IMG/VR virus record: IMGVR_UViG_3300023184_000479
Location: 1 to 25,376 of that record
Source: a virus
Length of the DNA stretch: 25,376 nt
Reading direction: 5' to 3' (one strand)
In this document: positions 4,319 through 23,147 of the stretch, piece by piece
How the letters are laid out: every line of letters begins with the position of its first letter
Numbering within the stretch: position 1 is the stretch's first letter
Program-made: the position numbers and the translations under genes
The notes under the pieces: generated by a model
What the model was told of the DNA's origin: nothing
Databases searched by the model: none
What the model saw: the letters and a program-made list of their open reading frames with translations, nothing else

Positions 4319-4651
4319 TTGGCAACAACAGTATATAGTGTAGAAGAAGTAACACTTCAAAACGGCTCAACGGTTAAGTTGAAGCCCCTAAGTATCAAAG
4401 AACTAAGAAAGTTTATGATTGTGCTACAAGGCGCAAGCGACTCAACTACAGAGGCGCAAACTCTTAATGTTCTAATTGACGCAGTTGCAGTAGCACTTGA
4501 AAAACAACTACCAGAATTGGTAGCAGATAGAGACGCATTAGAAGATGCGCTAGACGTTCCTACAATTAATCGCATACTTGAAGTATGTGGTGGGATTAAG
4601 ATGGACGACCCAAACCTTCTAGCGGCAGCGGTTCTGGCTGGTCAGAACTAG
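4319..4651 (+). CDS. Tail assembly chaperone, short (G-type) form
   Basis: 110 residues from a TTG start with AGGAGG six bases upstream, ending at TAG 4649-4651. The N-terminus (TVYSVEEVTLQNGSTVKLKP, then a SIKELRKFM helix) and the helical body (LNVLIDAVAVALEKQLPEL, VPTINRILEVCGGI) fit the G-type tail assembly chaperone family, which resembles lambda gpG in role: it binds the tape measure protein and recruits tube subunits. Its place directly between major tail protein and tape measure is diagnostic. Near the 3' end the gene carries a canonical -1 slippery heptamer, so a share of ribosomes make the longer fusion. The TTG start may hold down the amount. Confidence 0.88.
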   Translation: MATTVYSVEEVTLQNGSTVKLKPLSIKELRKFMIVLQGASDSTTEAQTLNVLIDAVAVALEKQLPELVADRDALEDALDVPTINRILEVCGGIKMDDPNLLAAAVLAGQN

Positions 4652-4986
4652 ATTTAGCCGCTTTAGAGGGTGAAGTTTTTCTTCTAGGTCACTGGAAGAA
4701 TTACGAAGAACTAGAAGAAAGTCTTTCAATGCCAGAACTAATTCAAACATTGAAATCTTTTAAGAAACAGAAGTCGGAAGACAGAAAGTTTACGGCAAGT
4801 CTTAAAGGAATCAATATAGATATAGATGAGGAAGACGCACAACCGCAAGGAAAAACTTTTGAAGATATACAAAGAAGAGCTCTTGGTATAAAAGCTTCAG
4901 GTGATGATATAGTTTCTTTACAGGGAAGTATGGCAGCACAAGCAGGGTTTGGAATCGGTGCAGGTCTAGGCTACACAGAGGAGTAA
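4319..4986 (+). CDS. Tail assembly chaperone, -1 frameshift fusion (GT-type)
   Basis: Joined reading 4319-4615 then 4615-4986: after decoding CCA AAC at the heptamer CCCAAAC the ribosome slips to CCC AAA and goes on in the -1 frame. The product is about 222 residues: 99 from the G part and 123 from the T part. The junction is a Gly/Ser linker (PSSGSGSGW), then EGEVFLLGHWKNYEELEESL and SMPELIQTL, the characteristic T-domain core. The T frame has no good start upstream of that core (first ATG 4729 lies inside it), so it must be reached by frameshifting. The end (4979-4986) supplies AGGAG upstream of the tape measure start. By family knowledge the T part binds tube protein while the G part coats the tape measure. 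Confidence 0.87.
4609..4662 (+). promoter_or_regulatory. Programmed -1 ribosomal frameshift signal
   Basis: Slippery heptamer C CCA AAC at 4609-4615, in the correct phase for X XXY YYZ. After a 5-base spacer an outer stem AGCGGC (4621-4626) pairs with GCCGCT (4657-4662). Inside it GTTCTG (4631-4636) pairs perfectly with CAGAAC (4643-4648) around the loop GCTGGT. The zero-frame stop TAG (4649-4651) lies within the structure. Confidence 0.85.
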
Positions 4987-4997
4987 CATAAAGATAA

Positions 4998-7900
4998 ATG
5001 GCTGATGAAAATATTGTAACTAATATAGTTGCCAATGCAGATTTCTCAGGTCTTATTGCAGATGTCAATAAGGTTGCAGCCTCTCTATCAAAACTCCAAG
5101 CACAAATAATTCAATCGGACGCAAGACTTGCAAGTCAAGTTGCTACGATGAACAGATCTTTTGGTGAAAACTTAAGAAGAACTGGGCAATTCTCAACACA
5201 CTTTGTTACACTAACATCAGATGTTGAAAAGTTTGGTACCAACCTAGACAAGGGCCAAATGAAGCTGAAGCAGTATTTTCAAACGTTTCAGACTCACACA
5301 AAAACACAAGGTGGATTAATTAGAGATCTTGCTAAGCAGCAAGTGGCTCTACAAAATGCAATCATACAGCCCATGGGTAAAAATGCTCAAGGGCTTATGC
5401 AATATAGCGTACATATTCCACAAGGACTTGATGCTGTAAAGAATAAAACTGCTCTTGCTAAACAAGAACTTCAAATCATGAATAAGGTTATTCAAGATGG
5501 TGGAGTTCAGATGATTAACTGGGGTAAGAATACTCAGTGGGCAGGCCGTCAGCTGACAGTAGGACTTACAGTTCCTTTAGCAGCATTTGGAAAAGCTGCA
5601 GCCGATGCTTTTAGAATGGCAGATGCTGAATTAACAAGACTTACAAAGGTTTATGGTGGAATTGCAGCAACATCAGCAACAGAGCTATCTAAGATAAGAA
5701 ATGAAGTTGCAGCTACTGCAAAAGATATTTCAAAGTCTTACGGTGTGTCATTTAAGGATACTATTAGTCTTGCAGCAGATATTGCAGCAACAGGCAAGCA
5801 AGGTAACGAGTTGCTAGCTTCTGTTAAAGAAACAAGCAGACTTGCAGTGCTTGGAGAAGTAGATAGACAAGATGCTATGAAGGCCACCCTGGCAATTCAA
5901 AATACATTTAAACAAAATACTGATCAGTTATCTGAATCTATTAATTTTCTTAACGCAGTTGAAAACCAGACATCAACAAGCCTTGGCGATTTAATTGAAG
6001 CAATTCCAAAAGCTGGTCCAGTTATTCAAGGAATGGGCGGAAGCGTAAAAGATCTAGCACTTTATCTTACAGCAATGAAAGAAGGTGGAGTCAATGCTGC
6101 AGAAGGAGCAAATGCCCTTAAGTCAGCACTTGCTTCATTAATTAATCCAACAAAAGTTGCAACAGAAAAGTTTGCGTCTATGGGAATTGATTTAGGCGGA
6201 ATTGTAACAAAGAATGCTGGAAACCTTACAGGAACAATATTAGAACTACAAAAGGCATTAGATCAGCTAGATCCACTAAAAAAGCAACAGGCTATTGAGC
6301 AGCTATTTGGTAAATTCCAGTTTGCTCGTATGAATGCATTATTTTCAAACCTAGGTAAGCAAGGAAGTCAAACTTTACAGGTAATGGATTTAATGAAAGC
6401 AAGCTCACAAGAACTAGCAGGAGTGGCTAGCCGAGAATTAGCAATGGTAACAGAGTCAGCTTCTGGAAAATATAGAAGAGCTCTTGAAGGCCTTAAAGCA
6501 GATCTTGCCACAATGGGAGAAGAATTTTTAAAGATACAAACATTTTTTGTTAATGTAACAGATGGAATTTTAAAGTTTATTAATAAATTGCCAGGCCCAG
6601 TTAAAACAATTTTAACATTTGTTACAGGGTTAACTGCAGTAATTGGCCCTATCATTATGTTAACTGGTGTACTTGCAAACTTCTTTGGATATATTATTAA
6701 AGGTGCTTCTCACTTTAAATCATTATTTAAAGGTGGAGAAGGCTGGAAAATGCTTACTCCAGAAATCCTTGCTGCTCAAAAAGCAGGATCACTTGTTGAA
6801 GCAACATTTTATAGTGATGCAAAAGCAGCAACAGTATTAAAAACAGCAATTGCAGGCCTTGTAACAGAGTTTGAATTACTTCAAAACAAAGCAATGACAG
6901 GCGCAGTATCTGTTGGACCAACACTTTCAACAATGGCTGGAAACATTGTAAGCCCTGGCGGAGGAAGAGTTGTTAATCCAAACCATCCATTAATTAGCGC
7001 AGAAGATACAAGATCAATGTCTCATCTTAATCCAGTTGCTGGAATGAGCACTGATTCAAGAGCAGCACAAACAATATTTGGAGTAGTTCCAGGAGCACCC
7101 AAAGTTAATCAAAAGATTGGAAATAATCCTCAGATGTATATGTCTGGAGATCTTCCAAAGATTCCAGGTCTTACATCAATAGGCGGAGCATCAACAGGAA
7201 TTGTAGCTGAAGAAGCAGCAAAGTGGCACGCAATGACAGGCGCACTTGCAATGCAATCACAAGCAGAAATTGCAGTATTGAAAAAAGAAGTAGCAACAAC
7301 GGGACTCATAACAGCAGAATTATCTGATTCATATCAAGCACTTCTTCCAACAATGACAAAACTTACACAAAATGCTGCAGCAGAATCTGCAGCAATTGTT
7401 GCAGAGTTGCAAGCTGGAAAAATAACAGTAGATGCAGCTAGATCTAAAATTATTACATTAAATGCACAAGTAGAGTCTATGATTGCACAAGCAGCTACAG
7501 ATATTGCTGGACAACAAGGCAGATCAATTGGTCTAACAACAGTGCCACTTCTAAATCAACCAGTTGTAAATAAAGATGGTAAGACTAATATGAAAGAGCT
7601 TACTCGTCCAGGAAGAACAAGAGATCTTCTTAATAAAATTGCTCGTGGTCTAGGCGTAAAAACATTTGGTGCTGGTTACAGCACAGAAACAACAATACCA
7701 AAAAGAATGTCAGAGGGTGGATCCGTATATCTTGCATCTGGAGATGAAGTTCCAGGATCTCCAAGAGGAAGCGATACTGTTCCAGCTTGGCTAACACCAG
7801 GAGAATTTGTTGTTAATGCAAAAGCAACAAAAGAAAATTTACCACTACTACGCTCCATAAATAACGGAGGATCTTTAGGCTCTTCTAGTGATGGATACAT

Positions 7901-9848
7901 GCCAGCAAGTGTGTCAAATAACATACTTAGTTCATTTGGGCACAATAGACTTGGAAGCAAAAAAGAAGCTAACCTAGTTGGAAGATGGGGAATGATTCTT
8001 CCTCAATCATTAAATGATGCACTTGCAGGAAAACTTGGAAGCGATGGAGCAAATGGTGCAGATATTATTGCTGCATTACAAGAGCCAGGTAGATTAATAG
8101 ACCTAGAAGACTTTTTATTGCACAATGGCGTTTCTCCAGAAGAAACAAAAGGCATTATGCAGGCAGCAGCAAAAGACATGGCTTCAAAAATTAGTCCATC
8201 AGGAAAGTATAAAGATGCTGGGTTGGGATCAATTGCATTTAATTCTATAGACTCAAAAATAAAAGCTTTAGAGTCAAAGTATCCAGGAATTAGTCTTGCT
8301 TATCAAAAAGATAGAATGACACCAGGAAGAAGAGATACAAGAAGAACTCCACGTCCTGGAGAAACACAAGCTCAAGCAAATAAGCGTGGAGGATCAAGCC
8401 CTACAGGAATTAATATCCCAGGACAGAGACCAAGTAACTACGGAGCTGGTGCAACAAGAGGTGCACAATTTGGCGAGAATCAAGTCTGGGCACATTTTAG
8501 TGATATGGAATTTCAAAAAAATACTTCTATGCTTTCTAGATCTATGGGATTCATAAGAGGTATTGCCAACCCAAGAGCAATAGCAGGAAGTCTTGCGGGC
8601 GCTGGAAGATTTGCACCAGGTAGAAGAATTCCAGGAGCAATAAGATTTAGTACTGGCGGAATGGTTCCAGGTGCACAATATTTTGAAGACGGAACAGATG
8701 GTCCAGTAGGATTTAGAGCAGGATATCAATCTCAAACATCTAAGGGATATTTAGGTAAGGGCTTAATGAGTAGACCAGAGGGCGGCGGGCTAGGTACTGG
8801 TGCTCAAATGGGTATTATGATGGGCGGAAGCATGGCAGGTCAAGCAATTGGCGGCACTGCAGGTAACATGACAATGTTAGCATCAAACATACTACCTTGG
8901 CTTCCATTTCAAAAAATATTACCACTATTAAAATCTGGAGAAAAGGGAGCAGGCGCACTTAAGAATGCGCTAACTCTAGCTGGAAGAGCGGCGGGACTAT
9001 TAACAAGACTACTCCCTGGAGCGGCAGTAATTGGCGCTATTTATGGTATATATAAAGGTTATCAAGCATGGCAAAAACAAATTGCCGAAACACGTAGAGA
9101 ACATATTATGCTTAATGGTATTACCGAAAAGGGTGCCAAAGAAGCTGGAATAAGTTATAAGAATATTGGAAACTCTATCAAGGATGTTAGAGAGCAATTA
9201 AGACTTCAAAAAGAAGCTGGATTATCTGCATATGATGCCATGACTCCTTCAGGAGTGCAAGGATTAACATTAACAATTACTCAGCTAAAAGAATTAAAGA
9301 AAACTGCAAAAGAAACAATGCCAGAGTTGGTTGGAACATTTAATAGTATTGATTCTTCTAAAGTTACTGATCTTGCAACTAATCTAAAGGCTCAATTTGT
9401 TGCTGCAGGAATGAGTGCCCAAGATGCAACAAATAAAATTTATGCAATTATAGAGGCTTCAAATAAAATTGGCCAAGGTTTTGGCGCTATTGCATCATCA
9501 GGATTTAAAGCAATTACAGATAGAGGATCTGCTGCAACAGCAATAATTAATACTCTTCTTGATAGCCTTAAGCAAATAGATACAGTTGATTCTAAAGCAT
9601 TTGCTTCAAATGTAGACACTGTAATATCTAGTCTTGACTCTGCAACAAATTCCCTAATAGGAACAAAAGATGCACAGGGCAAAACAATAACACAAGCGGA
9701 TGCGCTCATTGCTCAATTTGAAAAACTAAAATCTCTTGGGGCAGATAGGGAAAAGCTTGGTGAAAAGGGATTAGAAAACTTAAAGAAAGAAAGACCAGAG
9801 CTAGCAGGGATACTAGAGCTCAGATACAATTGCTGGAGTATATGCTAA
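4998..9848 (+). CDS. Tape measure protein, N-terminal portion (frame broken)
   Basis: 1616 residues, ATG 11 bases after the chaperone stop. Tape measure proteins set tail length and are ejected during infection. Residues ~175-500 form a PhageMin_Tail-type domain (RMADAELTRLTKVYGG, AADIAATGKQGNELL, EGANALKSALASLINPTKVA, QLFGKFQFARMNALFSNL). A hydrophobic segment at ~532-566 (ILTFVTGLTAVIGPIIMLTG) and a Gly-rich hydrophobic zone at ~1255-1350 may insert in the host membrane. The ~905-945 box with VPG, DTVPAWLTPGEFVVN and a KAT tail is a recurrent actinophage tape-measure motif. The last residues (after ERPELAGIL) degrade to an unconvincing LRYNCWSIC before TAA 9846-9848, while good coding sequence continues in another frame. 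Joined with the next ORF the protein is ~2150 residues, which at about 1.5 angstrom per residue predicts a tail near 300 nm. Confidence 0.88.
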   Translation: MADENIVTNIVANADFSGLIADVNKVAASLSKLQAQIIQSDARLASQVATMNRSFGENLRRTGQFSTHFVTLTSDVEKFGTNLDKGQMKLKQYFQTFQTHTKTQGGLIRDLAKQQVALQNAIIQPMGKNAQGLMQYSVHIPQGLDAVKNKTALAKQELQIMNKVIQDGGVQMINWGKNTQWAGRQLTVGLTVPLAAFGKAAADAFRMADAELTRLTKVYGGIAATSATELSKIRNEVAATAKDISKSYGVSFKDTISLAADIAATGKQGNELLASVKETSRLAVLGEVDRQDAMKATLAIQNTFKQNTDQLSESINFLNAVENQTSTSLGDLIEAIPKAGPVIQGMGGSVKDLALYLTAMKEGGVNAAEGANALKSALASLINPTKVATEKFASMGIDLGGIVTKNAGNLTGTILELQKALDQLDPLKKQQAIEQLFGKFQFARMNALFSNLGKQGSQTLQVMDLMKASSQELAGVASRELAMVTESASGKYRRALEGLKADLATMGEEFLKIQTFFVNVTDGILKFINKLPGPVKTILTFVTGLTAVIGPIIMLTGVLANFFGYIIKGASHFKSLFKGGEGWKMLTPEILAAQKAGSLVEATFYSDAKAATVLKTAIAGLVTEFELLQNKAMTGAVSVGPTLSTMAGNIVSPGGGRVVNPNHPLISAEDTRSMSHLNPVAGMSTDSRAAQTIFGVVPGAPKVNQKIGNNPQMYMSGDLPKIPGLTSIGGASTGIVAEEAAKWHAMTGALAMQSQAEIAVLKKEVATTGLITAELSDSYQALLPTMTKLTQNAAAESAAIVAELQAGKITVDAARSKIITLNAQVESMIAQAATDIAGQQGRSIGLTTVPLLNQPVVNKDGKTNMKELTRPGRTRDLLNKIARGLGVKTFGAGYSTETTIPKRMSEGGSVYLASGDEVPGSPRGSDTVPAWLTPGEFVVNAKATKENLPLLRSINNGGSLGSSSDGYMPASVSNNILSSFGHNRLGSKKEANLVGRWGMILPQSLNDALAGKLGSDGANGADIIAALQEPGRLIDLEDFLLHNGVSPEETKGIMQAAAKDMASKISPSGKYKDAGLGSIAFNSIDSKIKALESKYPGISLAYQKDRMTPGRRDTRRTPRPGETQAQANKRGGSSPTGINIPGQRPSNYGAGATRGAQFGENQVWAHFSDMEFQKNTSMLSRSMGFIRGIANPRAIAGSLAGAGRFAPGRRIPGAIRFSTGGMVPGAQYFEDGTDGPVGFRAGYQSQTSKGYLGKGLMSRPEGGGLGTGAQMGIMMGGSMAGQAIGGTAGNMTMLASNILPWLPFQKILPLLKSGEKGAGALKNALTLAGRAAGLLTRLLPGAAVIGAIYGIYKGYQAWQKQIAETRREHIMLNGITEKGAKEAGISYKNIGNSIKDVREQLRLQKEAGLSAYDAMTPSGVQGLTLTITQLKELKKTAKETMPELVGTFNSIDSSKVTDLATNLKAQFVAAGMSAQDATNKIYAIIEASNKIGQGFGAIASSGFKAITDRGSAATAIINTLLDSLKQIDTVDSKAFASNVDTVISSLDSATNSLIGTKDAQGKTITQADALIAQFEKLKSLGADREKLGEKGLENLKKERPELAGILELRYNCWSIC

Positions 9849-11454
9849 ATGGCGTGTCCTACTCTCTGGAGTAAATATTGATTTAAGAAACATAACATCA
9901 GAGCAAGCTATGGGTATTGCTGCGTATGAAGAAGCGCTAAATATGGCTGCATCTTCATCAACATCAAACGATAAGATAACTGGTGCTTTAGGAACCGCTA
10001 ATAAGGCAACTAAAACTTTAACAGATAGTATTAAGGCTGGCGAAACCGCAGTTAAGAATGCTTCAAAATCAGAAGCTGGTTATAGCAAGGCTAAGATTAG
10101 AGCAATTCAAGATGAAATTAAAGCAATAAGAGATCGAGCAGATGCAAAAAAGAAAGCATTAGCAGACTCTGTAAGCGCAGAAAATACAGAATTAGAATTA
10201 AAGAAACTTCAATTAGAAGCTCAATCAGCCCTTGCTCGTGGAGACAGGGATGCTTATGAGGCAGCAAATCTATCTATAGAGCAATTGACTAAAGAGACTC
10301 AGCTTAAAAAAGCGTCAGATAAAATTGATGAAAATGCTAAAAAAGAAATAGATGCTAAGCAAAAACTTCTTGATGATGATCAGGCAAAGAAAGACAGACA
10401 ACAAGAAACTATTAGCAAGTATACAAATAGTGGACAGTCAGCAGCAGAAACATTAAAACAAATCAATGATGTTAAATCGGCTCTTGCACAATTAGCAATT
10501 GATCAAATTGAAAATAATGCATTAAAAGATCCTGTTAAAAAAGCAGAAGGTCAAAAATCATTAGACGGAAGATTGCAGACTGTTGTGGCTGGCCTTGAAA
10601 AAGCATCAGATGTTGTTCAAAAAGCATTCCCAGAATATGTAGATTCAAAAACAAACAAGGGTAAGCTTGGTGGAGGCGTAACAACAATACCTGGGGCTGG
10701 ATCATTCCCAAATTCACCAGGAGAAGGAAATCAAGCATTCTCTAAGCTTGTTACAGAAATACAAGGCGGAGCAAAAGCAAACTTTGCAGCCATGGCTGAT
10801 AGCATAAAAGGTGGGGCAACTTTAAAAAATGTTGTAGAGGCTATGGGCGGTAAATTAGATAAGAGCAAATCTGTAACATCTGCAGACCTACAATCAGCAT
10901 TAGATAAGGGAACTTATAATAAAAATATTGATAAAACAGAATTATCAAAAGGATTCCTAGGAAAAGATAATTATTTAAAGGATGATGCAAGAGAGCTAAT
11001 AATTAGACAATATAAATTACAAGCAGGAGATACATTTAAATATGATGGTGTAGAATATATTGTAAAAGATGGTTTTGATAAGTGGACTGGACAGCCTAGA
11101 GCAGTAAGAAGATCTTTGGGTGGACCAGTAGTTGCTGGACAAACCTATGCTGTAAATGATAGACTTACTCCTCTAGGATATCAACAAGAAGGATTTACAC
11201 CATTCACTCCACAGATGAGTGGAATTATACGTCCAAATGCGGATACTATGCCTAAATATAATATTGCTAGCGGACAGGTGACTGGAATGCGTGGTGGAGT
11301 TAATAGCTCTTCTAGCAATAATAATTATTCTATTAATATTGCTTTGAATGGAACTAACGTAACCGCCGATGATGTTGTAAGAAGATTTAAGCAAGAGATG
11401 GCATTAGTTAATGCAAAAGAAGGAAGATCTAAGACCGTGGGAGGATCAATATAA
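9817..11454 (+). CDS. Tape measure protein, C-terminal portion (+1 frame relative to first part)
   Basis: The frame is open from 9817, just after a TAG at 9814-9816, and its first 30 codons (TIAGVYAKWRVLLSGVNIDL, then RNITSEQAMGIAAYEEAL) look like real protein, so the usable ATG at 9910 (no clear ribosome site) is probably not a true gene start. From 9910 the ORF gives 514 residues: long charged coiled-coil (KAKIRAIQDEIKAIRDRADA and after), a Gly-rich middle, then tape-measure end motifs GGPVVAGQTYAVNDRLTPLG and INIALNGTNVTADDVVRRFK. These ends belong at the C-terminus of a tape measure protein. A single +1 (or -2) shift inside 9817-9848 joins it to the first part. Alternatives are a natural lesion, a base-calling/assembly error, a programmed shift or a two-piece tape measure. 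Confidence 0.8.
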   Translation, partial: SSDTIAGVYAKWRVLLSGVNIDLRNITSEQAMGIAAYEEALNMAASSSTSNDKITGALGTANKATKTLTDSIKAGETAVKNASKSEAGYSKAKIRAIQDEIKAIRDRADAKKKALADSVSAENTELELKKLQLEAQSALARGDRDAYEAANLSIEQLTKETQLKKASDKIDENAKKEIDAKQKLLDDDQAKKDRQQETISKYTNSGQSAAETLKQINDVKSALAQLAIDQIENNALKDPVKKAEGQKSLDGRLQTVVAGLEKASDVVQKAFPEYVDSKTNKGKLGGGVTTIPGAGSFPNSPGEGNQAFSKLVTEIQGGAKANFAAMADSIKGGATLKNVVEAMGGKLDKSKSVTSADLQSALDKGTYNKNIDKTELSKGFLGKDNYLKDDARELIIRQYKLQAGDTFKYDGVEYIVKDGFDKWTGQPRAVRRSLGGPVVAGQTYAVNDRLTPLGYQQEGFTPFTPQMSGIIRPNADTMPKYNIASGQVTGMRGGVNSSSSNNNYSINIALNGTNVTADDVVRRFKQEMALVNAKEGRSKTVGGSI

Positions 11455-15662: not shown

Positions 15663-16061
15663 ATGGCACTAGAAAAACCATCAACAACAAGCGTAGCGGC
15701 AGATGCCCCTATTGCTATATATTCTAATTCTCCAGAGGCCACAGACCTGGGACCAAACTATAGAAGACTGATCCCTGGAAATACCGTAGGGCCACTTTAT
15801 CTAGGATCTCCAGATGTAAATTATAGTGAAATTGATGTAACTCTATCTATTGCAGAAGATGCAACGGCAGAAGCAAAAGCGGCAGAAGAAGCTTCAGTTG
15901 TAGTATATCCATCAGCTCCATCTTTATCTGATATACAAATAATTTCAAATAATGTAGTATATGACGCAACAGGAAATCCATCAGTGGAAGTAGTTTTTAA
16001 AGTTAAAAATTCAAGCGGGCAAAATTTAAAGGGAATAAACGCAAGACTGGAGCTATTATGA
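15663..16061 (+). CDS. Small tail-tip protein with C-terminal Ig-like strand pattern
   Basis: 132 residues. I do not recognise a family. The N-terminal half (PLYLGSPDVNYSEIDVTLSI) is followed by an Ala/Glu-rich helix or linker (EDATAEAKAAEEASVVV, ~70-86) and a beta C-terminus (IQIISNNVVYDATGNPSVEV, then VFKVKNSSGQNLKGINARLEL) resembling a single immunoglobulin-like or BppU-type domain. It opens the second tail-tip operon and its gene overlaps the next by ATGA, so the two products probably assemble together. Its mRNA is likely leaderless (perfect extended -10 six bases upstream). A structural role at the tail tip is inference from context. Confidence 0.55.
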   Translation: MALEKPSTTSVAADAPIAIYSNSPEATDLGPNYRRLIPGNTVGPLYLGSPDVNYSEIDVTLSIAEDATAEAKAAEEASVVVYPSAPSLSDIQIISNNVVYDATGNPSVEVVFKVKNSSGQNLKGINARLELL

Positions 16062-17143
16062 TAACAAAATTTGGTAAAAGATTTTTAACTAGCTATATGG
16101 CTGGCATAGTAGATTTTTCTACAAAAGATTTAGCATTGGGAATAGGAAGTACAACACCTAGCTCAGATGGCAATGACACAAAGTTAAATTTTGAATTTTA
16201 TAGACTTCCAGCAACTTTAAGTAGCGTAGATATCAGATCTGCAAATATAACAGGAGCGGCAGGAAGTGGAACAGTTATTACATATACTGCTGATAATAAT
16301 TTTAGCGTAGGTCAAACAATAAAGATAACTGGTATATCTCCATCTCAATATAATATATCAAGTGCAACAGTTGCAACTGCAACAAGTTCTCAATTTACTG
16401 TAAATAATTCAGCAACAGGCACCTATACCTCTGGAGGATATGCATCTTCTTATTCTGTTGTATATAAAGCAACAATTCCTCAAGATGTATCAGGAGTAAT
16501 ATCAGAAGTTGGATTGTATCCAGGATTTAGAAAATCAATCAATAATTATGATAGCAAGTTTATAACATCATTTGATAATAATTTATCGTGGACAGACGGT
16601 GCATATAACCCAGTTGTAGCATATAAGACTGATTCATTTATTCCAAAAATTGGTGACAATATGATTGCGGTTACAACTCCATTAAGCACAACAAAAGAAT
16701 ATACAAATTCAAATGCTACCTATGACCTATCAGGATACAGTGTTAATGATAGCCTTGCAATTGCATATAAAAAAGCAGATGCAAACGTTTCTAAAATAAG
16801 AATTAAGTTTTATAGTTCAGACTCCTCATACTGCTGGATTGATTTTACACCAGAGTCAGGAACTGGGGATAAAATACAATCAGCCACATTAAATAATTTA
16901 TTCTCTAACTTAACATCAACTCCACCAGATTTAACATCAATTATTAAAATTGGAGTAGAGGTAACAGCATCCTCTGGCGGAGCTACAACTGTTTATTTTG
17001 ACGGAATAAGAATTAATGACGAAGATACTTTTGATCCTTACTTTGGGCTTATTAGTAGATCAGTTCTAACTGGAGGGGATATCCTTACAAAGCCTTCTGG
17101 AAGACAAGTAGATATAGAATATAAGCTAGCGTTGGAGTTTTAA
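16058..17143 (+). CDS. Minor tail protein with inserted beta module
   Basis: 361 residues from an ATGA overlap. The ends look like a virion tail protein: MITKFGKRFLTSYMAG and FEFYRLPATLSSVDIR at the front, then YSVVYKATIPQDVSGVISEV with GLYPG, and SRSVLTGGDILTKPSGRQVD at the back. Between residues ~60 and 132 a Thr/Gly-rich block (GTVITYTADNNFSVGQTIKI, then TGISPSQYN and GTYTSGGYAS) interrupts this core; it is a compact beta module that recurs in structural proteins of aquatic phages. The C-terminal half (~195-320) is another jelly-roll-like segment (IRIKFYSSDSSYCWIDFTPE). Likely a tail-tip or fibre-attachment protein; exact function not known. Ends directly at the next ATG. Confidence 0.6.
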   Translation: MITKFGKRFLTSYMAGIVDFSTKDLALGIGSTTPSSDGNDTKLNFEFYRLPATLSSVDIRSANITGAAGSGTVITYTADNNFSVGQTIKITGISPSQYNISSATVATATSSQFTVNNSATGTYTSGGYASSYSVVYKATIPQDVSGVISEVGLYPGFRKSINNYDSKFITSFDNNLSWTDGAYNPVVAYKTDSFIPKIGDNMIAVTTPLSTTKEYTNSNATYDLSGYSVNDSLAIAYKKADANVSKIRIKFYSSDSSYCWIDFTPESGTGDKIQSATLNNLFSNLTSTPPDLTSIIKIGVEVTASSGGATTVYFDGIRINDEDTFDPYFGLISRSVLTGGDILTKPSGRQVDIEYKLALEF

Positions 17144-19279
17144 ATGGCAGATACACCTAATGATTTAGCTACAGTTCCTCAAACAACCCCAGACAAAAAT
17201 TATTTTAATGTATCTGTTAAGGGATTAAAATTAAGTAAGACTTATGCAATTCAATTTCAATGGATTTATACAGATGAAACCAAAGGCGATTGGTCTCCAT
17301 CTTATGTTTTTACAACATCAAATGAGCTAGCTCCCTCCGTTCCGTCTGGATCTGTACCTTCAACTGCAACTGGTAGCATACCAGTAACCCTTGCATCTTT
17401 TCCAGCAAAAGCTAAAAGAGTTGATGTTTATGTAATTGGCGGAATATTTGGTATAGGTAAAATAGCATATTCATTTTCCACAGCTGGAACAGCAACAATT
17501 GCTGCACCAGCAGGATCTTATACTGTTGAAATGAGATCAGTAACTGCAGCTGGAATAACTAGTACAGTTGGAGAAACATTTTCAATTACAATTGCAGATG
17601 TTGGTGAAACAATACAGGCACCAACAAATCCTAATGGATTCTCAATAGATAGAGTACTTAGTGGAATTCAAGTTAACTGGGCAGGCACATACGCAAATGG
17701 AACATTTACTGGATTTGAAGCAATTAAAATATATGTTGGAAACTCTGCAACCTTTACAAATGGAACCTATCGTGAAGCTGGGGTAATGACTGGCAATAAT
17801 GTTAAAAATACAATTACAATACCAGTAGATGGAACATACTTAAGATATGATTTACCAGTTTACATACATGCAGCTGGTGTTAATAAATCTGGGACACTAG
17901 GAACAGTTCAGGTAAATGTAGCAAATAATAGTTTAGGTGCAAGATCTGCAATTGCATCAGATTTATCAGATCAAATTATTACAAATGCTAAATTAGTTGA
18001 TGATGCAGTAACTGCTGCAAAAATTGCAACATCAGCAATTACTACAACCAAAATAGCAGATGACGCAATTACTACACCTAAGCTTGTTGCAAATGCTATT
18101 ACTGCTGATAAAATAGTTTCTTCTGCAATTACTGCAGATAAGATTGCAACTAATGCAATTACAGCAGGCAAAATTCTTGCAGGAACAATTGATGTAACAA
18201 AGTTAGCAGCTGGAACAATATCAGTAAATAATTTAGAAGCTGGTTTGATTACAGCTACATCTTATATTCGTGCTGGAGGATCTACTGGAGCAAGAGTCGA
18301 GTTGTCTAGTTCTAATATTTCTGGTGGTCCATCTGCAGGATTTTATATTTATAACTCAGAAGGAACTGCTATATTAAGTGCTCCCTTAACTGGCGGCCTT
18401 TCAATAACTGGTGGTGGATCATTTACTGGAGACATATCTGGAGCAAGCGGAACATTTTCTGGAAATCTTTCTTCAAGCAATGGGCAGTTTTCTGTAACAA
18501 GCGGCAACCTATCAGCCCTTTCTGGATCAATTGGTGGATGGGTAATCAATAGCCAAGCATTAAAAAATTCAGCTGTGGCATATCCAAACATTATGCTTGA
18601 CCCAAGTGGGGCTAAAATTGAATTAAGAGCAACAGCATCTAATTCTTCTGATACTGGAAACTACATTAAAATGGACACCACTTCTGGATTAAGAATTGGA
18701 ACAACAGGAGCAACGTATACAAATTTTACAGTCGACATGACTGGTAAAATGACAGCAAGGGATTCAACTATTTATGGTAAAATTATTGCTGCAAGCAACG
18801 GAACCTATTCTGGAACGTTAACAATAGATGGCGGATTTATGAATCACAATGCTGGAATGTATATAGAAACAGAAAGTGGATTTACTATATACACCAGAAA
18901 AACTTCTGGTGGAAGCCAGGACACATCTGGATACTTTTTTGTAGCAAATACTGGAGATTCATGGATGGGGTCTGGTGGAACTTACTCTGCATATATAAAT
19001 GGATCACTTAATTCATTAAACTTTTCAATTTTACACACCGATCCAGGTGACGGATATCGAGCAAGAGGTTATAATTTATTGAACCTAGATGCTACTGAGT
19101 TTAGACAAGCAAATATTAATAATCAATATACCGCTTCAAAAACAGTTGTAGTAGATTACTACGGACATTTAAGTAATGGCAGAGCACTTTTTTATGGACC
19201 AAGAGGAACATCTTCTACAATAAATTCAGACCTTGGTGGATCCGCTGCCATAGGAGATTTGTACTTCAGTACATCTTGA
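17144..19279 (+). CDS. Tail fibre with tandem 10-residue repeats
   Basis: 711 residues; ATG follows the previous stop with no gap. Residues 1-155 and 160-275 read as two FN3/Ig-like domains (SKTYAIQFQWIYTDETKGDW; QVNWAGTYANGTFTGFEAIK). Residues 280-369 are nine 10-residue repeats of the form T-x-x-K-[IL]-x-x-x-A-I, a pattern of trimeric coiled/beta-helical fibre shafts. Then a Gly/Ser-rich shaft of short strands (GGGSFTGDISGASGTFSGNL), typical of phage and adhesin stalks, and a beta-rich tip from ~440 (GWVINSQALKNSAVAYPNIM ... YYGHLSNGRALFYGPRG). It should be a trimeric tail fibre contacting the host surface. No intramolecular chaperone motif was recognised at the C-terminus, so folding may depend on a helper. 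Confidence 0.72.
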   Translation: MADTPNDLATVPQTTPDKNYFNVSVKGLKLSKTYAIQFQWIYTDETKGDWSPSYVFTTSNELAPSVPSGSVPSTATGSIPVTLASFPAKAKRVDVYVIGGIFGIGKIAYSFSTAGTATIAAPAGSYTVEMRSVTAAGITSTVGETFSITIADVGETIQAPTNPNGFSIDRVLSGIQVNWAGTYANGTFTGFEAIKIYVGNSATFTNGTYREAGVMTGNNVKNTITIPVDGTYLRYDLPVYIHAAGVNKSGTLGTVQVNVANNSLGARSAIASDLSDQIITNAKLVDDAVTAAKIATSAITTTKIADDAITTPKLVANAITADKIVSSAITADKIATNAITAGKILAGTIDVTKLAAGTISVNNLEAGLITATSYIRAGGSTGARVELSSSNISGGPSAGFYIYNSEGTAILSAPLTGGLSITGGGSFTGDISGASGTFSGNLSSSNGQFSVTSGNLSALSGSIGGWVINSQALKNSAVAYPNIMLDPSGAKIELRATASNSSDTGNYIKMDTTSGLRIGTTGATYTNFTVDMTGKMTARDSTIYGKIIAASNGTYSGTLTIDGGFMNHNAGMYIETESGFTIYTRKTSGGSQDTSGYFFVANTGDSWMGSGGTYSAYINGSLNSLNFSILHTDPGDGYRARGYNLLNLDATEFRQANINNQYTASKTVVVDYYGHLSNGRALFYGPRGTSSTINSDLGGSAAIGDLYFSTS
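17981..18250 (+). repeat. Nine tandem 30-bp (10-codon) repeats in the fibre shaft
   Basis: Units run TNAKLVDDAV, TAAKIATSAI, TTTKIADDAI, TTPKLVANAI, TADKIVSSAI, TADKIATNAI, TAGKILAGTI, DVTKLAAGTI, SVNNLEAGLI, with decay in the last two. At DNA level the units share CTAAA/ACTAAG-like and GCAATTAC cores, so the copy number could change by slippage or recombination. Confidence 0.85.
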
Positions 19280-19283
19280 TAAC

Positions 19284-22121
19284 ATGACAGTGTGGAATAA
19301 AACTGGAAACAGTTCTTGGACAGAAATTAAATCTATATTTAATAAAACAGGTTCTTCATCTTGGACAGAAATTCTTGGTGTTTGGGTTAAAACTGCATCT
19401 AGCACGTGGACAAGAGTATTTACAAGAGTACTAGTTCCAGCTAATACTGTAGAGCCAAGTGTTACTGGAAGTCAATATCTTTATGGTACTTTAACTGGGT
19501 CTTTGGGAACATGGACTTCTCCAAATGGAACAAATAGTTATGCTCGTCAATGGCAAAGGTCAACACCAACAGGCACACCAATTTCTCCAGGCTCGTGGGG
19601 AAATATATCTGGGGCTACATCATCAACATATACAACAGTTGATGCTGATAATGGAAAATATATTAGACTAAATGTTACAGCAACCAATTTAAGCGGATCA
19701 TCAACAGCCGCTTCTTATGAAACTTTAATTACAAAATATTCTCCTGTAGCATTAAGCCTGTATTCTCTTACGGGATCTTCTATAGTGGGAGCAACACTAA
19801 CGGCAACCGAACAGGTAGGGACTTGGAAACAAACAACAACAATATCTGGAGACACATATCCAGATACATTTGAATATGAATGGAGTTACTCAGATGGAAC
19901 TATTAAACAATCCACTGCATTTAATTCAACTAATAGCAATACATATACAATAGTTGCAGGTGATTTAGGTAAAATAATTAGAGTTAGAGTTACTGGAAAA
20001 ACTTCTGCTTATTTAGATGACCCTAATAGAGGATCAGGATATTCAACAACTGGCTATACTTCATCTGGAACTGTTACATCAACTTATTCTTTTAATTTTG
20101 GCAATACTTTATATGTTGGGTCTAATGGATATATAGGATTAGACAGTGGCGGAAGTTTTGCAAGTAGCCCAGGGTCTGGAAGAATTATAAATATATATAG
20201 TGGTGATTTAGTTCAATATAAACTTCAAGAATATTCTGATAGTAGTAATTATTATTTATACTTTAGATCTTATAATTACCAATCGCCATTAGTAAGAGCC
20301 GCAGCAAATGCGGTTGACTACCAAATTAAATTTTATACAGGTCAGCCCTATTGCGATATTTATATAGTAAGAAAAGGTGCTTCAGTTCCCACTCAAACGC
20401 AAGGTCCAGGTTATTACAGTAGCGGATTTACTGGATATGCTGGAATTCCTGGCCCTTATGTATGGTCGGCAGGATCAGTTTTAAGATCATATTTTAATGG
20501 AGCTACTGGCAGCCAGTCGGCGTTTACTTGGACTACAATATCAGATACAGTATGGAAAGATATTACGGCTGCTGATATAGATGATAGCTTTACATCAGTA
20601 GTGACATCTGCAAATCAACAAGCTCCTATATTAACAGCTCCAACAATTACATCTGTAACCCCAGGTCCACAAGGCGGAGCGGTCTCTGTTTATTTTACTG
20701 GTGGATCTGGACCATACTATCAAGCATATTGGACAACTGGAGCTGCTCCAACAACTGCAGTTACACCAGATGCATCTGGCTCTTCAAGTCCATTAACGGA
20801 TAGCACGGGTCCCAATTATACTCAAACAGCTTATATGTATGTAAGATCTGTTGCAGTGCAAAATGATACAGCAGTAGGTCCATCAACCACAGCAAGTGCT
20901 TGGAGTGCTGGAGTATCATTTAATATGACCTCTACCGCTGTTTCACAAAGCACTGCACCATCTGCAACGGCAACAAGTAGTGGCTCTACTACAACAGTTA
21001 AATATGGGGATTCAATTACTTGGTCAGCTGGTACATATACTAATGCTGCATCTATAACATCAGTGCTTTTATATAGCACAAACACGGCATATCTTGCCTC
21101 TACACTGGGAGATACCAGCACTTCTTATAGAACATCAAATCCGTACTCAATAGTTACAAATGATCCAACGGGAACCCCCTACGTATTTGCAGTAAGAGAC
21201 ATAGTGGTTGGAACAAATGGAACTACATATTATTTTTATAGTAATCAAATTACTTCTGCCTTAGCAGACGCAGTAGCATTTTCATATGGTACAGCAACAT
21301 CAACAAATGGAGGTTGGACAGCTTCAGTTAATAGCGGAACTCAGACGGGAGCAACATACTCATATGTTTCAGCAACTGTCGGATCTGGATCAGTAAACTC
21401 ATCTACTGGCGCAGTTACTGCATCTGGTTTATCTTCTGCACAATCTTCTACAATTACAGTTAGCAAATCTGTTTCTGGATATAATAACGCCTCAGCAACA
21501 GCAACAGGTACATCTAACACAGTATCAGTTATACCTACAATTACCATGGGTTCAAACACTGGTGTTGGAACTGGAGGAGCTACTATTAACTGGTCTTCTA
21601 CAAATCAATCATATGCTTATGTAGACGGAACATATGTTGGAAATGTTAATAGTTATACGTTTACTGGTAAAGCATCCAGCACAACTTATTCTGGAACCGT
21701 TACAGTTTATTCTTCAACTGGTAACACAGCTTCAGCTAGCTATAGTTTTACAACTACTACCCCATTTACACCACCATCTTCTGGGGCACCAGCTTTGCAA
21801 TTTTTAAGAACATCTGGTTCATCAAGACTTGATTGGTATTGTGACTACCCTGGAATTTCTGGAAATGGTTCAATAACAGGTATGGATTTTGAAATTAGAA
21901 CAACTGCAGGTGGTGGAACATTATTAGCAAGTGGAACAAGATCTTATCCAGGAGCATTTACATACCCTTATTCCGCTGCTGGAACCATCTGGGCATTTAG
22001 AATGGGTACAGCAAATGGAGATATATCTTATAGTTCATCTGCAAGATATGGAAGAGCCAGAGTTGTAATGCTTGGAACAAATGGAACCACTTATTACGGT
22101 ACTTGGTCATCTTGGATATAA
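19284..22121 (+). CDS. Large multi-domain tail adhesin / receptor-binding candidate
   Basis: 945 residues, Ser/Thr/Gly/Tyr-rich, almost free of cysteine. Residues 3-47 are three 15-residue repeats (pattern [VI][WF]xKT[GA]xSSWT). Two Ig-like modules follow (~50-150 and ~155-262), each ending with the pattern Y-T-x-V-D-A-D-N-G-K-Y-I-R-L-x-V. About 265-375 looks like a nidogen-type domain (FGNTLYVGSNGYIGLDSG; NAVDYQIKFYTGQPYCDIYI). Several more FN3/Ig-like modules run from ~450 to 830 and a Tyr/Ser-rich tip ends the protein. Such mosaics sit at the outer end of phage tails and change quickly between relatives. It lies between the fibre gene and small coiled-coil genes. Surface binding is inferred; the receptor cannot be told from sequence. 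Confidence 0.68.
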   Translation: MTVWNKTGNSSWTEIKSIFNKTGSSSWTEILGVWVKTASSTWTRVFTRVLVPANTVEPSVTGSQYLYGTLTGSLGTWTSPNGTNSYARQWQRSTPTGTPISPGSWGNISGATSSTYTTVDADNGKYIRLNVTATNLSGSSTAASYETLITKYSPVALSLYSLTGSSIVGATLTATEQVGTWKQTTTISGDTYPDTFEYEWSYSDGTIKQSTAFNSTNSNTYTIVAGDLGKIIRVRVTGKTSAYLDDPNRGSGYSTTGYTSSGTVTSTYSFNFGNTLYVGSNGYIGLDSGGSFASSPGSGRIINIYSGDLVQYKLQEYSDSSNYYLYFRSYNYQSPLVRAAANAVDYQIKFYTGQPYCDIYIVRKGASVPTQTQGPGYYSSGFTGYAGIPGPYVWSAGSVLRSYFNGATGSQSAFTWTTISDTVWKDITAADIDDSFTSVVTSANQQAPILTAPTITSVTPGPQGGAVSVYFTGGSGPYYQAYWTTGAAPTTAVTPDASGSSSPLTDSTGPNYTQTAYMYVRSVAVQNDTAVGPSTTASAWSAGVSFNMTSTAVSQSTAPSATATSSGSTTTVKYGDSITWSAGTYTNAASITSVLLYSTNTAYLASTLGDTSTSYRTSNPYSIVTNDPTGTPYVFAVRDIVVGTNGTTYYFYSNQITSALADAVAFSYGTATSTNGGWTASVNSGTQTGATYSYVSATVGSGSVNSSTGAVTASGLSSAQSSTITVSKSVSGYNNASATATGTSNTVSVIPTITMGSNTGVGTGGATINWSSTNQSYAYVDGTYVGNVNSYTFTGKASSTTYSGTVTVYSSTGNTASASYSFTTTTPFTPPSSGAPALQFLRTSGSSRLDWYCDYPGISGNGSITGMDFEIRTTAGGGTLLASGTRSYPGAFTYPYSAAGTIWAFRMGTANGDISYSSSARYGRARVVMLGTNGTTYYGTWSSWI
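19290..19424 (+). repeat. Three 45-bp repeats at the adhesin N-terminus
   Basis: Residues 3-17, 18-32 and 33-47: VWNKTGNSSWTEIKS, IFNKTGSSSWTEILG, VWVKTASSTWTRVFT. Tryptophan, Lys-Thr and Ser-x-W-T keep the same spacing. Probably a virion-attachment segment. Confidence 0.82.
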
Positions 22122-22122
22122 T

Positions 22123-22287
22123 ATGGATATAGAAAAAGAATATAGGTTATATATAATTGAACAAAGGATTAAATCATTAAACGGGAAAAAACAACTAATT
22201 TTAGAGGGAACTCCAATGGATTCCTATACAAAAGAAGACATAGATAGTCAAATTCAAGTATTGACTAATATGCTTAAAATGCTATAA
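22123..22287 (+). CDS. Mini coiled-coil protein 1
   Basis: 54 residues (MDIEKEYRLYIIEQRIKSLN and on) starting at the ATG just after the adhesin stop TAA (22119-22121). An in-frame upstream ATG at 22072 would run through the end of the adhesin gene and is not credible as the start. The sequence is helical, with two amphipathic helices split by a TPMDSYTKED turn, ending in a leucine-rich IQVLTNMLKML. It resembles the next gene in layout: an II-x3-I-x-SL helix, then a second helix with Q-I-x-x-L. Function unknown; a fibre-assembly helper or small virion component fits the position. Confidence 0.62.
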   Translation: MDIEKEYRLYIIEQRIKSLNGKKQLILEGTPMDSYTKEDIDSQIQVLTNMLKML

Positions 22288-22288
22288 T
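22261..22288 (+). promoter_or_regulatory. Promoter for the small coiled-coil genes
   Basis: TTGACT (22261-22266), 16-base spacer, TATAAT (22283-22288) with TGC extended -10. It is embedded in the 3' end of the preceding gene. The start would be near 22295, so the leader would be very short, with AGGAGG (22294-22299) near its 5' end. Confidence 0.7.
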
Positions 22289-22304
22289 ATGAAAGGAGGC
22301 AAAC

Positions 22305-22532
22305 ATGACAATTCAATTAACCAAAGATGAGAAGGCACAGATTATTAATAATCATATTCAAAGCCTGTCTTACACAAAGTATAATCTAGAAATAGATATT
22401 TTGCAGGAAAATGCAAAAGCTGCTCCAGTAGCATCTAGCATTACAGCATTTGAAACGCAAATAGAAGATATACAAGGACAAATTACAGCTCTTAACACAG
22501 AGTTAACAGCAGTTAAAGCACTAGCAGAATAG
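22305..22532 (+). CDS. Mini coiled-coil protein 2
   Basis: 75 residues with AGGAGG five bases before the ATG, the best ribosome site in this part of the window. Two helices: KDEKAQIINNHIQSLSYTK and, after an Ala-rich turn, a regular heptad coil (ITAFETQIEDIQGQITALNT). It shares with the preceding 54-residue protein the order I-I-x3-[RH]-I-x-S-L-x3-K and a final Q-I-x-x-L helix, suggesting a diverged duplicate. No known family recognised. With its own strong promoter and ribosome site it is probably made in quantity. A trimeric or dimeric helper for fibre folding, or a structural cap, would be consistent. Confidence 0.68.
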   Translation: MTIQLTKDEKAQIINNHIQSLSYTKYNLEIDILQENAKAAPVASSITAFETQIEDIQGQITALNTELTAVKALAE

Positions 22533-22541
22533 GTATTAAAA

Positions 22542-22715
22542 ATGGCAGATAAAGCCGAATTAGTTATAACTGCGTTACAGCAACGCATTGGCGAAATTGT
22601 CTCAAATTATGAGACTCAAATTGCTATATTACGTGCTGAACTTACGCAGCAAATGCAAGAAAAAGAAGATAAAGAAAAAGCAATAAAGGATTACGAAGAT
22701 TCTTTACCAGCATAA
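22542..22715 (+). CDS. Mini coiled-coil protein 3
   Basis: 57 residues read directly from the sequence: ATG at 22542, TAA at 22713-22715. Nearly all helix: AELVITALQQRIGEIVSNYE, TQIAILRAELTQQ, then a Lys/Glu-rich tail. A similar Q-R-I-x-x-[IL]-V-x-N-Y-E-T-Q-I-A-x-L-R-A-E-L segment is familiar from small uncharacterised proteins of tailed phages near the tail-fibre genes. Nine bases separate it from the previous gene and 12 from the next, so it is part of the same transcript. The upstream ribosome site is weak. Function unknown. Confidence 0.66.
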   Translation: MADKAELVITALQQRIGEIVSNYETQIAILRAELTQQMQEKEDKEKAIKDYEDSLPA

Positions 22716-22727
22716 GGAGAAAACATA

Positions 22728-23147
22728 ATGGCATTTAATGATGGAGATCCAATTGACGCTGCACAATTAGGCGCACTAGAGACTTCGCTAGCTGAAATTA
22801 AATCTAGAATTCCTCAATTGGGGTCTTCGACAACCAATATCTCTATAGACAATAGCACCATTCAAACAGCAGTTGTCCCTAAGATTTTTGGTGGAAAAAC
22901 AAAATCTATTAAATTAACTGCAGGCGGAACAGTATCTTTTCCAGTTGATTATTCGGCTGCTTCATTTACCGCCGCTCCAACTTCTATTACAGTAACTCCC
23001 GTTAGAGGAACTGGAATGGCAGCCTACGAGGCTTATGTTGTGCAAAGCTCAGTTACAGCCTCGGGAGCAACAGTTAATGTGTATTTACCTTCAGGTAATA
23101 CTGCAATAAATACAGCCTTTTATTTCTTAGCTATACAGCACTCCTAG
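22728..23147 (+). CDS. Small fibre protein with coiled-coil base and beta head
   Basis: 139 residues, TAAGGAG upstream. The N-terminus (MAFNDGDPIDAAQLGALETS, then LAEIKSRI) is the attachment/coiled-coil opening of many small phage fibres. Residues ~50-139 are a single beta domain (SIKLTAGGTVSFPVDYSAAS, PTSITVTPVRGTG, then FYFLAIQHS) with strand spacing and a final F-x-x-L-A-I-x-H reminiscent of H-type lectin-like or head-fibre heads. A second receptor-binding or decoration protein is likely; this is by pattern and not certain. It is the last structural gene before the terminator at 23191. Confidence 0.6.
   Translation: MAFNDGDPIDAAQLGALETSLAEIKSRIPQLGSSTTNISIDNSTIQTAVVPKIFGGKTKSIKLTAGGTVSFPVDYSAASFTAAPTSITVTPVRGTGMAAYEAYVVQSSVTASGATVNVYLPSGNTAINTAFYFLAIQHS

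Follow-up and report, generated by a model that had tools for sequence, protein, structure and literature searches.

A two-base gap interrupts the tape measure protein gene of an uncultured viral contig

Gene layout and the interrupted tape measure gene

The window, which is the whole stretch of DNA analysed here, is a record of 25,376 bases from uncultured viral contigs and has a series of virion genes on its plus strand. The tape measure protein (TMP) gene is located between the tail assembly chaperones and the distal tail genes, a position that fits a TMP. The features relevant to the analysis are:

Virion gene run (+): head-tail adaptor, Ig-domain protein, chaperone pair, tape measure, minor tail proteins and fibres, metallophosphoesterase
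4319-4986 (+): tail assembly chaperone pair with a canonical-looking -1 programmed frameshift (heptamer, hairpin, conservation)
4998..9815 (+): N-terminal part of the TMP, about 1606 codons in the original frame
9812..9818 (+): lesion site, two bases fewer than in every relative, with the gap aligned at about 9814/9815
9816..9848 (+): out-of-frame tail of the first ORF, ELRYNCWSIC plus the stop at 9846-9848, absent from all relatives
9817..11454 (+): C-terminal part of the TMP, about 545 codons in the +1 frame relative to 4998

The first TMP ORF (4998-9848) codes for 1616 aa and ends with ...KKERPELAGILELRYNCWSIC followed by the stop. Its N-terminal part matches the tail length tape measure proteins of PHROG 10030 (E 4.7e-120, residues 86-838) and the Pfam family PF10145 PhageMin_Tail (E 1e-28), and it shows 64-90% identity to the TMPs of relatives. 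The nearest annotated relatives with such TMPs are found in Streptomyces phages such as Wofford, Tomas, and Angela. The N-terminal 600-840 residues (approximately) can be aligned with PHROG 10030 TMPs and the gene follows directly after a frameshifted chaperone pair, as is typical for TMPs of PHROG 10030 / PF10145, but the window gene differs in being interrupted by a two-base gap.

The +1 frame, which carries SSDTIAGVYAKWRVLLSGVNIDLRNITSEQAM..., becomes open directly behind the TAG at 9814-9816 and ends at the stop at 11454. It is open from 9817 and its initial residues are SSDTIAGVYAKWRVLLSGVNIDL. No ATG occurs in it before 9910, and the listed ORF of 514 aa (9910-11454) covers only the portion of this frame from that codon on. 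Over about 30 bases (9817-9846) the +1 frame and the first ORF overlap, and no stop intervenes. The positions of the frame opening (9817), the stop (9846) and the ATG (9910) had been given correctly in the initial annotation. The window thus has a split gene where a single long ORF is the mark of a TMP; this split is a sign that the TMP copy is broken and does not move the gene to another family.

A nucleotide match to the window sequence was sought among annotated phages and none was found. For the C-terminal 540 residues (approximately) of the TMP, there were also no matches in annotated phages and all matches were to uncultured viral contigs. A search for RNA families over the window gave no matches.

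Comparison with related contigs

A total of 23 related contigs could be recovered with a 200-residue alignment that spans the break site, and for eight of these the downstream part of the TMP was recovered as well. One open frame continues across the junction in all 23 contigs. As the set ranges from about 40% to about 90-92% identity near the site (in the 200 residues preceding it), a single frame is the rule and presumably also the ancestral condition. From stop to stop, the TMP ORFs of the eight contigs studied in more detail have about 2130-2390 codons (2131-2392). When the single intact proteins of relatives are compared to the window by tblastn, they match frame 3 up to 9818-9845 and then frame 1 from 9817 onwards, the downstream frame showing 62-77% identity to the C-terminal 540 residues (approximately) of the relatives' TMPs. 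That intact proteins match two window frames is well beyond chance, and the break in the TMP gene, as first reported, is real in the sequence as given.

At the nucleotide level, each of the eight aligned relatives is two bases longer than the window at the break. Within the region 8900-11000 (2.1 kb aligned), the gap at about 9814/9815 is the only one that the window has in common against all eight relatives, while all other gaps are multiples of three, with the exception of one at the alignment edge. The sequences flanking the two-base gap are otherwise closely similar to those of the relatives. Alignment to the full TMPs of relatives had been proposed in the initial annotation, which also considered a 2-base loss as one option; this option is borne out, with an intact ORF in all relatives and the two-base gap in the window only. 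A short stretch in the third frame (TRAQI), which had been taken as protein-like, is not encoded by the proteins of the relatives and is attributed to chance.

The exact junction sequence was searched in all other viral contigs without a match. None of the relatives found exceeds about 80% nucleotide identity in the break region, so that a break common to a narrow clade is possible. A chimeric join of the contig at the break was also considered but is unsupported, as none of the relatives shows a switch in identity there.

Pairwise dN/dS amounts to about 0.2 on either side of the break. This value, which averages both lineages and cannot detect a very recent loss, indicates that the downstream frame has not long been abandoned and was used as protein until very recently.

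Nature of the interruption

We are confident that a TMP gene of about 2150 codons, normal in other respects, is split by one two-base deletion that only this contig has, and that the interruption is not programmed. The deletion may be an error in the sequence or may be genuine. Since the remainder of the TMP is intact and constrained, as are the other conserved genes, we attribute the gap either to an error or to a very recent mutation. In our judgement, it is somewhat likelier that the metagenomic contig contains an error of consensus or assembly. What an assembly shows is the majority sequence, and it is unlikely that an allele which disables an essential gene is in the majority, from which we infer that an error is to be preferred. 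On the opposite side, no further frame error was seen in the contig, so that it is not error-ridden as a whole, and the break is not located in a long homopolymer, where sequencing indels are commonest. When larger stretches of four related contigs were compared with the window, none of its other conserved genes proved to be broken; the fibres encoded at 17144-22121 are too diverged for a full judgement.

A real and recent deletion, probably a disabling one, is in our judgement the less probable of the two but a serious candidate. Taken at face value, translation would stop at 9846-9848, resulting in a TMP without its C-terminal 540 residues (approximately), which would be expected to interact with the tail-tip/initiator complex. 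A phage encoding a TMP without this C-terminus probably would not form infectious tails. In phage TP901-1, deletion of the C-terminal 30 residues of the TMP abolished both plaques and tails (PMC5099701). As these residues are essential in TP901-1, the allele would probably be disabling in the present phage as well.

Programmed ribosomal frameshifting could be judged against a positive control from the same window. The chaperone ORF at 4319-4651 overlaps with a -1 frame that is conserved up to 4986. The ORF listed at 4729-4986 covers only part of this T-like frame, whose open and conserved stretch starts at about 4609. A slippery heptamer, C CCA AAC (CCCAAAC), is found at 4609-4615, the surrounding stretch of about 35 bases is nearly invariant across 8 genomes, and a strong hairpin follows 3′ of the heptamer (z -2.85). 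As this pair was scored by the same tests, these are able to detect the signature of a programmed shift when it is present. The window thus provides a clean contrast between a programmed shift in the chaperones and a lesion in the TMP. It has a chaperone frameshift of the lambda G/GT type (4319-4986) immediately upstream of the TMP gene, while the TMP break, unlike that type, has no heptamer, no conserved site and no hairpin, and does not occur in the relatives.

A programmed +1 or -2 shift, by which a short and a long TMP would be made from one gene, is considered very improbable. It is true that a +1 shift within the overlap of about 30 bases (9817-9846) would restore almost the whole TMP, and programmed shifts are known from phage tail genes, including a -2 shift in Mu (PMC5009743). 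However, none of the 23 relatives requires a shift, and their other frames are full of stops. Synonymous-site identity, determined for 13 close relatives in a 21-codon window at the break, is not raised: it is 0.69 compared to a gene-wide mean of 0.66, and 31% of the windows have an equal or higher value. Neither a slippery nor a shifty-stop sequence could be recognised at the break, and there is no RNA structure downstream of it (9816-9900, z +0.14), which sets it apart from the conserved heptamer and hairpin of the chaperone site. Shifting driven by rare codons was also considered: the frame-0 CTC codon near the break is indeed rare (2% of Leu codons), but the site is not conserved, and the AGA at the break is the common Arg codon (77%), so that a rare-codon-driven +1 shift was rejected. 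The literature on split or frameshifted tape measure genes, as far as it was covered, contains no programmed case in the TMP itself. The initial annotation had offered a lesion, an assembly error or a programmed +1/-2 shift; the first two of these stand, whereas the shift, by the refuting condition set in that annotation, is refuted by the single frame of all relatives together with the lack of a conserved shift motif.

There is also little reason to believe in a TMP that is truly split into two cooperating proteins, the second one starting from the ATG at 9910. This codon does exist and the 514 aa ORF downstream of it is intact, but its Met is an internal residue which is retained in most of the intact relatives (SEQAMGIAAYE), and conserved residues encoded ahead of it (9817-9909) would be lost. 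A separate start at 9910 was rejected as there is no ribosome-binding site upstream, and a split TMP is found in none of the 23 related contigs.

Even less probable is a pseudogene of long standing within a prophage that is decaying. Such prophages typically have essential structural genes that are broken, but here both the rest of the TMP gene and the conserved tail genes besides it have stayed intact and under constraint, a search of bacterial genome contigs for a host or prophage copy found no relative, and no further damage to other genes was seen within the fragment. We find it hardly credible that a narrow, unsampled lineage has fixed the two-base loss and produces full TMP through +1 shifting, weak and of a non-canonical kind, within the overlap of 30 bases.

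With a one-off deletion or sequence error as the preferred explanation, both ORFs should be annotated as one disrupted TMP gene, rather than as two proteins or a recoding event. Beyond annotation the break has little significance and is ordinary.

Distal tail genes

Two long tail-fibre-like genes, coding for proteins of 711 and 945 aa, are located at 17144-22121 on the plus strand. They are only about 50% conserved, compared to 75-99% for their surroundings, and the 945-aa protein has neither a PHROG match nor a Pfam match above the cut-off. They may form a host-recognition module that is diversifying. The stretch of about 600 bases that separates them from the ORF at 22728 (22122-22727) is devoid of ORFs of at least 80 aa and of Rfam matches. 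In a related contig of 86.8 kb, several further large genes (at about 55330-75105) match short stretches of the tail protein encoded at 16058-17140, with 36-57% identity. This suggests a domain that recurs in several large proteins.
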